The notes under the pieces were generated by a model, which was not told the origin of the DNA, did no database searches, and saw nothing but the letters and a program-made list of their open reading frames with translations. A program made the position numbers and the translations under genes. 64,000 nt of DNA from Candidatus Vallotia laricis (lineage in GTDB: Bacteria; Pseudomonadota; Gammaproteobacteria; Burkholderiales; Burkholderiaceae), in the NCBI RefSeq assembly GCF_020541325.1, contig NZ_CP047399.1:744001-808000 (forward strand). The letters are read 5' to 3'. Shown piece after piece: positions 26,864 to 30,581 of the stretch (its first letter is position 1; the number at the start of each line of letters is the position of its first letter).

Positions 26864-28366
26864 CTATTCTCGTGACTTCTGTACTGGTGCAGCCCTCGGC
26901 TTAACTGGAATAAACTGCGTGTTATCGCCACGGCGCACTAGTAAAGCAATATTTTTTTGAGGGTTGAGTTTCTGCATGAGCAGCGCAAATTGTTTAGTAT
27001 TCGCAACGTCAGTATCGCCGATTCGCAGGATAATATCACCCCGCTTTAATCCGGTGTGAACTCCTGGTCCGTATACGTCATCAATTTGAACACCCCCCGT
27101 CAAATGCATCGATTTGAGTTGTTCTGGCGATAGATCGCTGATAGCTAGCCCAAGTTGGTTAAATTCGTGATCGTGCGATGGAGCATGCCGACTAGTTTTT
27201 GCCTTCATCGTTATGTCCGGCTGCATCTCAGATATAACAACTAAAAAATCTTTTATTTTTCCTTTACGCCAAATAGTTAGCGTCGCCCGAATACCGGGCT
27301 TAGTTTCACCAATCATCCTCGGCAGGTCTGTCGCTGTATTTACATTGCGCCCATTAAACTTCAGGATAATGTCTCCTGGTTGTACGCCGGCTTTATCGGC
27401 TGAGCCATTTATCTCGACGCTGGATACTAGCGCACCCTTAGTCTTAGCTAGACCTAGAGATTCTGATACTTCTTTAGTGACCTCACTAATTGATACTGCG
27501 ATACGACCTCGTACGACACGCCCATTAATCTTCAACTGATCTGAAACGCGAATTGCCTCATCGATCGGAATAGCAAAAGAGATTCCCATATAACCGCCGG
27601 TACGGCTATAGATTTGCGAGTTGATGCCAATTACTTCGCCCTTCATATTAATTAATGGCCCACCCGAATTTCCTGGATTAACTGCAACATCAGTTTGAAT
27701 AAATGGTAAATAATCTCCGGTATCACGCCCCTTCGCACTAACAATGCCAGCGGTAACCGTATTCTCTAGTCCAAATGGGGAGCCGATTGCTACAACCCAT
27801 TCTCCAACTCGGACTTTATTCGAATCGCTAATTATTACCGTCGGCAGATTTTCCGCATCAATCTTCACAAGCGCGACGTCGGTACGCTCATCTACGCCGA
27901 TTAACTTTGCTTTGAATTCACGTTTATCAGTTAAAGTTACATAAATAGTATCCGCATCGTGTACCACGTGCGCATTAGTCATCACATAGCCATTAGATGA
28001 CAAAATAAAACCCGATCCTACGCCACTGCTTTGCTCGGAATCTGCTGGATCTTCTAAACCCCCATCTCCTCCGTGAGAAGAGTCTGGTTTGCCTGGCTGT
28101 TGTGGTAACGGAATTCCAAAGAATCGTCTGAAAAATTCAGACATCTCGCCTTCCTCTAGACCCAAAGGTGGGCTTGTCAAACTCCGCTGTTGCGCATGCG
28201 TAGCGGTACGAATATTGATAACTGCTGGACCTACTTTATCAACTAGGTCAGTAAAATCTGGCAGGTTAGAGGCAGGTGGTGCACCAGCTGCGCACAGGTA
28301 CACTAACGGAATACAGATGGTTATAAAAACCGCGAGCAGGAATCTGCGCACCGGATAAATACTCAT
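26864..28366 (-). CDS. mucD: Periplasmic serine protease of the DegP/MucD family
   Basis: Periplasmic protease and chaperone for misfolded envelope proteins. A signal peptide covers about residues 1-28. The triad is H133 (TNAHVVHD), D163 (DERTDVALVKID) and S234 (NPGNSGGPLIN). Two PDZ domains follow, around ALVSSVEINGSADKAGVQPGD and VQIDDVYGPGVHTGLKRGD. Length 500 is typical. Its ATG overlaps by four bases (ATGA) the stop of the upstream rseB fossil. In Burkholderia this gene belongs to the rpoE-rseA-rseB-mucD envelope-stress operon. Confidence 0.95.
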   Translation of the reverse strand: MSIYPVRRFLLAVFITICIPLVYLCAAGAPPASNLPDFTDLVDKVGPAVINIRTATHAQQRSLTSPPLGLEEGEMSEFFRRFFGIPLPQQPGKPDSSHGGDGGLEDPADSEQSSGVGSGFILSSNGYVMTNAHVVHDADTIYVTLTDKREFKAKLIGVDERTDVALVKIDAENLPTVIISDSNKVRVGEWVVAIGSPFGLENTVTAGIVSAKGRDTGDYLPFIQTDVAVNPGNSGGPLINMKGEVIGINSQIYSRTGGYMGISFAIPIDEAIRVSDQLKINGRVVRGRIAVSISEVTKEVSESLGLAKTKGALVSSVEINGSADKAGVQPGDIILKFNGRNVNTATDLPRMIGETKPGIRATLTIWRKGKIKDFLVVISEMQPDITMKAKTSRHAPSHDHEFNQLGLAISDLSPEQLKSMHLTGGVQIDDVYGPGVHTGLKRGDIILRIGDTDVANTKQFALLMQKLNPQKNIALLVRRGDNTQFIPVKPRAAPVQKSRE

Positions 28367-28701
28367 ATTGTCAACAAAAAGAAAAAACCGTGCAAGACCT
28401 CGATCGAGGAGTCTTCTATTCTATAGAAGAAATGAACTATAAAAGCATAATCATCGACACTCCGCCGTACATGGAATCTAATAATTACTATTGCGCCTGA
28501 CTGGGATATGTGTAGCCAAACTTGCACTAGAGGCTTTTTCTCAGGAATTTTGTTTACATATGGCTCGACAAAAATTGAGATCACATAAATTTTATCAGAA
28601 AACACTGCCAAACTATTGACAGTAGTCAACGCTGATAGATCAGATAAATTATCAGCCAACGAAGTCTCTACACACTGAGAAATTTTGGAATATAATTCCA
28701 C
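28363..28701 (-). pseudogene. rseB: Fossil of the C-terminal domain of anti-sigma-E regulator RseB/MucB
   Basis: A 112-codon open stretch between mucD and rpoE, where rseB belongs. It aligns by eye with the end of MucB/RseB: VFSDKIYVISIFVEP fits the family VFSDGL-x2-S-V/I-FVEP strand, SQSGAI and VRRSVDDYAFIV fit SxxGAI and RRVDDYxVTV, and the end RIEDSSIEVL fits the last strand and helix. The stop still overlaps the mucD ATG as ATGA. The N-terminal two thirds are gone; an in-frame stop lies just before the GTG at 28701. It contains a palindrome CCTCGATCGAGG (28398-28409) and an 8-bp hairpin at 28412-28430. Assignment is by pattern and position, without a database search. Confidence 0.65.
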
Positions 28702-29684
28702 GATTTATTATCTTACCATCTCTATATTGGTACGTTCTATAGGTATTCATGGATTCATAAGATTCTGCTTACCATTACACCAACTGAGCCCCCCCTATAA
28801 CAAGCAATTTTCTAAGTACTTACTATCCTCATCTAATAACTGCTTGCGAAATAGTACATTAGTTTTCTTACTATTTATATAACCTACTACCTATAAAATA
28901 CTTAATTTTCTTCATGCTTGCATATTTGCATATGCATATCTTTAGAAGCAAGCAATATAGACTTGGTCGAGTACATAATTATCACTATTTCTACAAAATA
29001 TGCGATAAATTTACCGCACAATCACCTTTAGATAAAAATTACTCGTGGATCTATGGTCACACCGCTTGATATGAATATAATTTCAGCTAATTAGCTGTCT
29101 CGTATTGATTAGAAAATGTATTATCAATCAGATAATTTCAACGTAGAAACCATAGTCTCGCAAAGCAAAATCGTATAGCTAAATTCGGCAGCAGCGCAAC
29201 AGTATGTTTTCTCCGCTAAATATTGATTAATCCATATTATATATAAACATGCCCATATCTTCCCGAACGCTGTTACTCGCTGGAGTTGGACCTAATCATA
29301 TCCCCACATGACCTAAGTCATGTGGTTAGCAAGTTTTCATTTCCAAAGCTTTTTATTTTAAAAACTAGAAATACAGCGCTGTCATGCTAATCTTCACCGC
29401 ATATTGCTTCGCTAACATAATCATCTAATGGTGATTTATGCAGAAAACACCGATCAGATAAAAAATCTATTTTGTAGCATATAGCATTGACAGGAAACCT
29501 GTAAACCTAGGCGATGTGTGTTTACTATTGTATATCTATCATCTTTCTACGATTTCCTATATCTAGGAATACGATCGAAAATTTCCCTGTTACTTTCGGG
29601 CTAATTTAGCTACTATGGTATATATTTTATAATTTTCTCTAGTTTAACCGTCAACCTTGTAGGTTCTGTTTGTTCCTTTCTACC
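28702..29684. other. Decayed region where rseA and the 5' part of rseB are expected
   Basis: 983 bp with no intact gene. The RseB N-terminus and the membrane anti-sigma factor RseA should lie here; I recognise neither. It includes a run of seven C (28789-28795), the palindromic TGCATATGCA patch near 28.93 kb and a 9-bp hairpin at 29304-29325 (CCACATGAC/GTCATGTGG, loop CTAA). Confidence 0.6.
29304..29325. repeat. 9-bp GC-containing hairpin downstream of rpoE
   Basis: Arms 29304-29312 and 29317-29325 match exactly around CTAA. It lies about 360 bp after the rpoE stop; a role as the rpoE terminator is possible but unsupported by a T-run. Confidence 0.45.
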
Positions 29685-30284
29685 CTACCATCGTTTTCCT
29701 ATTGGTGGATCTAGTAACGGTCTCAACCTTTTTGCAATAGATTCGCGAGCCCGGAAAATCCGAGATCGAACAGTACCGATTGGGCACTTTATCATCTTAG
29801 CAATTTCCTCATAGCTTAATCCCTCGATCTCTCGCAGAATAATCGCTATTCGCAATTCTCTAGATAACACCGCTATAGCAGTGTTGACTGTTTGAGCGAT
29901 CTGCTTACTCATTAACACTGATTCGGGAGTATTGATATCTTTTAGAGAGGCAGTGTCAGAGAAAGTTGCAGCCCCATCTATATCCACTGTAGTAGATGTT
30001 GGCACACGTCGCCCCTGCGTTGAAAGATAGTTCTTTGCGGTGTTGACGGCGATTCTATGCAGCCACGCATAGAATGCAGACTCGCCTCGAAATTGTGGAA
30101 GTGCTCGATATGCTCTAATAAACGCATCCTGCACAACGTCTTCAACTTCAGCTGGATCTCGTACGAGACGAGAAATCAGCCTAATGATCTTACGGTGGTG
30201 TTTAGCAACCAAGAGGTTAAACGAAGCTTTGTCACCCTGTTGTATGCGCTCGACTAATGCTTGATCGATTTCTTTTTCGCTCAC
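29685..30284 (-). CDS. rpoE: Extracytoplasmic-function sigma factor sigma-E (RpoE/AlgU)
   Basis: Alternative sigma factor for the envelope-stress response. Region 2 is clear (LVAKHHRKIIRLISRLV, then VEDVVQDAFIRAYRALPQFRG) and region 4 has EIEGLSYEEIAKMIKCPIGTVRSRIFRARE. I chose the GTG at 30284 (199 residues), which begins VSEKEIDQALVER as in relatives; a TTG at 30320 would add 12 residues. No rseA gene follows, and rseB survives only as a fragment, so the protein may be free of its usual membrane anti-sigma control unless that sits elsewhere. mucD further downstream is intact. Confidence 0.95.
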   Translation of the reverse strand: MSEKEIDQALVERIQQGDKASFNLLVAKHHRKIIRLISRLVRDPAEVEDVVQDAFIRAYRALPQFRGESAFYAWLHRIAVNTAKNYLSTQGRRVPTSTTVDIDGAATFSDTASLKDINTPESVLMSKQIAQTVNTAIAVLSRELRIAIILREIEGLSYEEIAKMIKCPIGTVRSRIFRARESIAKRLRPLLDPPIGKRW

Positions 30285-30389
30285 CTGAAAAATCCGTTGT
30301 TGTATAGATTTCGACTGCAAAGATTCTATTGAGGTATATTTTTAGTTAAGCAAGCCTAGAAATAAAAATCCTGCGAGGATACCAGCGAT

Positions 30390-30447
30390 AAATAGCCCAT
30401 CGGATAGCACTAACACTAATATGATAGTGCTATCCGATGGGCTATTT
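30390..30447. terminator. Perfect 23-bp hairpin between fabF and rpoE
   Basis: Arms 30390-30412 and 30425-30447 (core AGCCCATCGGATAGCAC) are exact reverse complements around a 12-base loop. On the fabF strand it is the second of two hairpins after the stop. No T-run follows, though the arms end in AAATA/TATTT. Confidence 0.75.
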
Positions 30448-30544: not shown

Positions 30545-30581
30545 TTTTAGTAATGCCTAGCGCTGCTAAGCATTACTAAAA
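30545..30581. terminator. Hairpin after fabF with AAAA/TTTT flanks
   Basis: Outer arms TTTTAGTAATGC (30545-30556) and GCATTACTAAAA (30570-30581) pair perfectly, and an inner TAGC/GCTA extends the stem past one mismatch. It begins 68 bp after the fabF stop and resembles a bidirectional intrinsic terminator more than most of its kind here. Confidence 0.7.

Follow-up and report, generated by a model that had tools for sequence, protein, structure and literature searches.

The present study concerns the rpoE locus of Candidatus Vallotia, an adelgid symbiont, within a window of 64,000 nucleotides (the whole stretch of DNA that was analysed, to which all positions refer unless marked otherwise) from a genome of 1,125,782 bp in two contigs, herein G000. 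We consider it fairly probable that the sigma-E factor RpoE of this symbiont is free and set by its own level after the loss of RseA, RseB, and RseP, that its benefit has weakened but is still selected, and that the state is a transitional one, which has arisen at least twice. In passages of two reports, RseA is described as the protein that holds sigma-E at the membrane, up to the point at which a protease cascade with DegS and RseP among its members degrades RseA (PMC2909356; PMC11481867). The Vallotia set comprised four small genomes listed as separate species (G000, G002, G003, and G005; for G002 and G005 we infer the name Vallotia). The genus group of G000 is a mixture of 3.3-3.8 Mb and 1.2 Mb genomes, and its four large members formed the Mycetohabitans comparison, giving six pairs for the ratio of nonsynonymous to synonymous substitution rates (dN/dS). 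Three congeneric Mycoavidus genomes (G024, G060, and G074) were also included. The gene order on the minus strand of the window is fabF, rpoE, a gap of 1.3 kb, mucD, and lepA, with the following features.

29685 to 30284, minus strand: rpoE, extracytoplasmic function (ECF) sigma factor, intact; GTG start at 30284, stop at 29685, 199 amino acids.
29601 to 29609, minus strand: lost rseA start region, from DNA alignment with G002, G003, G005, and Mycetohabitans.
28870 to 29684, minus strand: decayed rseA and the 5' portion of rseB, without protein similarity exceeding that of shuffles in G000.
28404 to 28869, minus strand: rseB relic, in pieces with stops, similar to Mycetohabitans RseB.
28363 to 28701, minus strand: open frame of 112 amino acids without a Pfam match; it shares 4 bp with the start of mucD.
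26864 to 28366, minus strand: mucD, DegP/HtrA-type periplasmic protease, intact; 500 amino acids with Trypsin_2 and PDZ domains.

First, profile searches and alignments show that RseA, RseB, and RseP have been lost as genes in all four Vallotia genomes examined. Neither the Pfam profile RseA_N nor a profile built from 20 burkholderial sequences matched anywhere in G000, whose second contig measures 61,393 bp and has a GC content of 38.1% over 60,000 bases; these negatives do not extend to other anti-sigma families, and a diverged RseA can escape a profile, as G041 suggests. Of 41 genomes, 28 matched RseA_N; within the genus group of G000, every large genome did so (4 of 4) and no small one (0 of 4). 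The burkholderial profile matched 9 of 25 genomes, again without any Vallotia among them. The RseB profile recovered only relics, with E values of 2e-11 in G002 and 1e-7 in G003, and was at chance level in G005 (E 0.23) and in G000 (E 0.59, the rseB relic only). With Peptidase_M50, full-length RseP was found in each of the four large genomes and in no Vallotia; no RseP of about 454 amino acids was found in G000, where the sole M50 match is a short paralogue. This paralogue, a frame of 231 amino acids at G000:C1:484212-484739, is also kept in G005 and has no match in G002 or G003. The interval between dxr and bamA, which is the rseP site in Mycetohabitans, has about 450-760 bp between aligned ends in Vallotia, and C-terminal rseP relics were detected there in G005, G003, and G000 (a weak one of 27.3 bits in G000), none being listed for G002. 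The profile search of the gap found no complete gene, and no RseA, intact RseB, or full-length RseP was found in the rest of the 1.13 Mb genome. Assemblies commonly contain false frameshifts, and errors of assembly or sequencing might have broken rseA and rseB; this explanation has next to no probability, since four Vallotia genomes carry losses at this locus whose lesions differ in part, and rseP is lost at another locus.

Second, the gap between rpoE and mucD holds the remains of the regulators. In all four Mycetohabitans genomes this gap (1805-1814 bp) contains rseA, of about 228 codons, and rseB, of 348 codons; in the four small genomes it measures 717-1417 bp with a GC content of 0.34-0.42. 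The earlier note had reported no rseA in the 983 bp next to rpoE (28702-29684), and this was borne out: this stretch and the 112-residue frame lie where it had placed them, and comparison of the gap with the Mycetohabitans protein listed no rseA similarity in G000, so that only the position of the relic was recovered, by DNA alignment. In the sister genome G002, an rseA relic is still detectable (29.6 bits against a shuffle maximum of 23.1). The proposal of the earlier note that the last third of rseB is readable has to be withdrawn, as this is a frameshifted pseudogene with several stops. The pieces similar to Mycetohabitans RseB score 31.6, 29.6, and 20.0 bits, the two larger ones exceeding the maximum of 21.2 bits obtained from 100 dinucleotide shuffles and the smallest alone not doing so, and the 112-residue frame follows RseB for its first 48 codons or so and runs out of frame after a 2-bp insertion.

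The relics of Vallotia keep the ancestral gene order, and several lesions are shared. The 2-bp insertion in rseB is common to G000 and G003, a 4-bp insertion at the old rseB stop codon is common to G000, G002, and G003, and the rseA start position, ATG AAC GAG in Mycetohabitans, reads CTA AAT TAG in both G000 and G003. Because these lesions are shared, they indicate that rseB, and by alignment rseA, was inactivated before G000 and G003 split; the argument is drawn from a single alignment, in which the DNA is decayed. The TAG, which also occurs in G005 and is absent in G002, may have arisen twice. The ratio of nonsynonymous (pN) to synonymous (pS) differences per site is 0.31-0.39 for the rseP relic of G005, which looks fresher, against 0.63 for its rseB relic, and the rpoE relic of G002 (0.44 and 0.40) falls within the range of the rseA and rseB relics of that genome (0.38-0.77). 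An attempt to derive the order of loss from these ratios was given up, as the codons are too few.

Third, rpoE has remained an intact gene. As the earlier note had stated for rpoE and mucD, both frames are complete, with both sigma domains present in the 199 codons of rpoE; the mucD frame is open in each of the four Vallotia. RpoE matches Sigma70_r2 (1.7e-20) and Sigma70_r4_2 (1.5e-15) and has the length of an ECF factor; its top match among solved structures is E. coli sigma-E (1or7, residues 1-191, E 1e-63), and it is 81-82% identical to the four Mycetohabitans copies, in the orthologous position between fabF and mucD. The frame is open, with 199 stop-free codons, in G000, G003, and G005. 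Three Sigma70_r2 proteins were counted in each of these genomes and two in G002; we read those of Vallotia as RpoD, RpoH, and RpoE, judged by frame length and position. The segment CPIGTVRSRIFRARE, which we take to be the recognition helix, is identical across the three genomes save for E181A in G003. In G000, the substitutions T73A and Y76H (30057-30068) change residues that 80 of 80 relatives have in common.

Between G000 and G003, rpoE has a pN of 0.124 and a pS of 0.464 (Fisher p 1e-16), the pN and pS by domain being 0.084 and 0.508 in sigma2 and 0.121 and 0.446 in sigma4; among the three Vallotia that keep rpoE, the ratio for the two domains is 0.13-0.27, these figures being pairwise counts with high pS. 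Since these differences accrued after the G000/G003 split, the comparison shows that rpoE has been under purifying selection, without its anti-sigma factor, from a time when rseB, and by alignment also rseA, was already dead. When neutral decay of one lineage was simulated with a simple model at 0.36 substitutions per site, the frame stayed free of stops in 0.35% of runs, with a mean of 5.4 stops; at 0.2 and 0.1 substitutions per site the stop-free share was 2.2% and 11%.

The linker between the two domains (residues 94-116) is nearly neutral among the three Vallotia pairs (pN/pS 0.71-1.07) and near-invariant in 80 relatives. The idea that loss of RseA frees this linker was not upheld, as genomes bearing RseA are equally variable at similar domain divergence: relative to Mycetohabitans RpoE, 9 of 21 sites in the linker and 19 of 163 in the domains are changed in the RseA-bearing locus L099, compared with 10 of 21 and 23 of 163, respectively, in G000. 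RseA-bearing pairs with 4-8 domain differences have 0-2 linker differences, and the Mycoavidus copies (L166 and L167) differ at 8 of 19 linker and 5 of 163 domain sites, which favours the idea.

Several observations weigh against a stable and important role of RpoE. The gene is dead in the sister G002, with four TAG and one TAA within the match and no start, and that genome retains mucD despite the loss. The RpoE of G000 deviates at 24 of 170 near-invariant sites, T73A and Y76H included. The dN/dS of rpoE is 0.187 between G000 and G003 against 0-0.036 in the six Mycetohabitans pairs, a rough comparison as the latter are less diverged; the corresponding values are not raised for mucD (0.083 against 0.083-0.167) or fabF (0.032 against 0.032-0.061) and are modestly raised for lepA (0.050 against 0.016-0.035). 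Furthermore, the -10 box upstream of rpoE is altered in G000, and an excess of sigma-E promoter patterns was obtained in only one of five genomes, namely G002, whose rpoE is dead. The dead or unmatched gene in G002 and in Mycoavidus G074, the looser selection than in Mycetohabitans, the changed upstream box, and the changed residues would fit a gene on its way out, in which function was lost soon after the regulators and the frame is intact only through slow decay. We regard this as rather unlikely. Three Vallotia have kept the full frame free of stops where simulated neutral decay averages 5.4, the two domains remain constrained, and constraint is also seen between two Mycoavidus genomes (G024 and G060, pN 0.031, pS 0.180). 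Each of the two readings accounts for some of the data; because sigma2 and sigma4 are under selection, a functioning, level-set RpoE is preferred over a slowly dying gene.

The region upstream of rpoE is as follows.

30285 to 30345, minus strand: rpoE leader and upstream region; the TACAAT box (-10 box) of relatives reads CTCAAT at 30328-30333.

The TACAAT box is present upstream of rpoE in all four Mycetohabitans, in four of five other Burkholderiaceae (not in Pandoraea), and in G003 and G005. Because it reads CTCAAT in G000, the transcription of rpoE may be changed there too. Paired TGTAAC-like repeats precede the box in Mycetohabitans and several Burkholderiaceae (L135-L138, L007, L040, and L052) and were not seen upstream of rpoE in G000, G003, or G005. 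The space between fabF and rpoE also holds two inverted repeats, one at 30390-30447 (arms of 26 nt, 96% complementary, 6 nt spacer) and one at 30545-30581 (arms of 17 nt, 94% complementary); exact matches to a 20-nt piece of an arm of the former are confined to the two loci of G000 among 211 loci. The promoter search compared the E. coli-like sigma-E pattern GGAACTT-N15-17-TCNNA with its reversed control and gave 3 against 8 in G000, 6 against 4 in G002, 0 against 7 in G003, 5 against 6 in G005, and 5 against 14 in Mycetohabitans G007. This pattern may be wrong for the family, because no excess was found even in G007, which has the complete system. When 17 sources were scanned locally with a related pattern, no match fell in the window, and the attempt to predict a regulon was given up.

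Fourth, the same combination is found in Mycoavidus. In G024 and G060, rpoE stops about 70 bp before mucD, and neither the RseA nor the RseB profile had a match in these genomes; the RseP search, made in G024 among the Mycoavidus, returned just a short M50 protein. RpoE had no match in G074. In the FabF tree, Mycoavidus stands apart from the clade of Vallotia and Mycetohabitans (100/100 and 100/99). Because of this grouping, and because Mycetohabitans keeps RseA, the tree and profile results imply that RseA was lost with RpoE kept at least twice. An additional, independent origin in G005, which is placed loosely among Mycetohabitans in the FabF tree, was not upheld, as a tree of 11 concatenated proteins joins it to the other Vallotia (100/100), although its branches are long and its outgroups, represented by no more than 4 of these proteins, fall inside Mycetohabitans with low support. 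More widely, 5 of 13 genomes negative for RseA_N encode an RpoE of at least 60% identity (G000, G003, G005, G008, and G024), and G008 had a match to neither RseA nor RseB and lacked a mucD gene within a distance of 1.5 kb from rpoE. A close RpoE occurs in 319 of 398 sampled genomes of the family, of which only a minority were tested for RseA. In Candidatus Burkholderia pumila, a leaf-nodule symbiont (L057, 6670-7300), rseA is apparently split over two frames with rpoE and rseB open, which could be a draft-assembly fault or the beginning of the same loss. Tentatively, and with less confidence than for the Vallotia case itself, we suggest that an unbraked sigma-E might be a repeatable, long-lived state of intracellular Burkholderiaceae, with separate origins in adelgid symbionts (Vallotia) and fungal symbionts (Mycoavidus). 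In this view, the sensing branch would be dismantled once the habitat turns stable, and RpoE would serve for some time as a further housekeeping sigma factor, set by its level, and then be discarded.

Herein, we propose the following course of events. In a stable intracellular habitat, the sensing part of the system would become dispensable. RseA was probably lost before or together with RseP; this would be the safe order, because without cleavage RseA would keep sigma-E silent. As RseA, its membrane anchor, is gone, RpoE should be free, and its activity would follow its own synthesis and turnover rather than envelope stress. The freed RpoE would be tolerated, with a benefit that is weakened and still selected, and rpoE itself would later be lost in some lineages, as in Vallotia G002 and Mycoavidus G074, which makes the state transitional. 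The earlier note had suggested a constitutive sigma-E or a changed control circuit: the changed circuit is well supported by the loss in four Vallotia, and constitutive activity, which we infer, would follow from the role of RseA. Control might also have passed to another anti-sigma factor or to a different mechanism (transcription, proteolysis, or an RseA that has moved and diverged). A diverged RseA may go undetected by a profile, and in G041 (L161, 2057-2698) the open reading frame after rpoE is RseA-like by position yet has no match to the burkholderial profile. However, the position after rpoE in Vallotia holds relics only, and RseB and RseP are also gone, so that a replacement appears improbable, as judged from searches that covered RseA, RseB, and RseP, and the free, level-set RpoE is retained as our reading.

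In the literature accessible in part, no report was found in which these symbionts retain RpoE in the absence of RseA, and the words "sigma" and "rpoE" are absent from the main text of two Vallotia papers. The genomes form a natural series from the complete circuit (four Mycetohabitans) through a sigma factor without its anti-sigma factor (three Vallotia and two Mycoavidus) to its absence (G002 and G074), which allows one to ask in what order a regulatory circuit is dismantled in symbiosis and if constitutive service is open to a sigma factor that is normally sequestered. Because Mycoavidus cysteinexigens B1-EB is available as an isolate from its fungal host, according to one report (PMC5877345), it may be possible to address the question without an insect.

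Several known systems can be compared. In sections of published reports, rpoE, degS, and rseP are described as essential in E. coli BW25113 and not in two ST131 strains (PMC11481867), and Bordetella, likewise a betaproteobacterium, as carrying rpoE, rseA, rseB, and degP in one operon and as being without DegS (PMC8263021). Compared with the RpoE-RseA-RseB-MucD (sigma-E/AlgU) operon of Burkholderia, Mycetohabitans, and Bordetella, Vallotia shares the sigma factor and the order fabF-rpoE-gap-mucD-lepA, whereas its RseA, RseB, and RseP are missing or pseudogenes, hence there is no membrane sensing branch. In rseA mutants of E. coli and in mucoid mucA mutants of Pseudomonas aeruginosa, loss of the anti-sigma factor frees the sigma factor, and the Vallotia RpoE would work likewise. 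However, those mutants are laboratory or infection-adapted strains with otherwise complete systems, whereas in Vallotia the branch including RseP is gone across the divergence of several species. In the symbiont SOPE (Sitophilus oryzae primary endosymbiont), rpoE is pseudogenized and in Sodalis glossinidius it is kept, according to part of one report that is silent on rseA (PMC3914690). The trend of losing alternative sigma factors in symbiosis is common to both cases, but in Vallotia the sigma factor has outlived its regulators, and the case represents the dismantling of a known control circuit rather than a system of a new kind.

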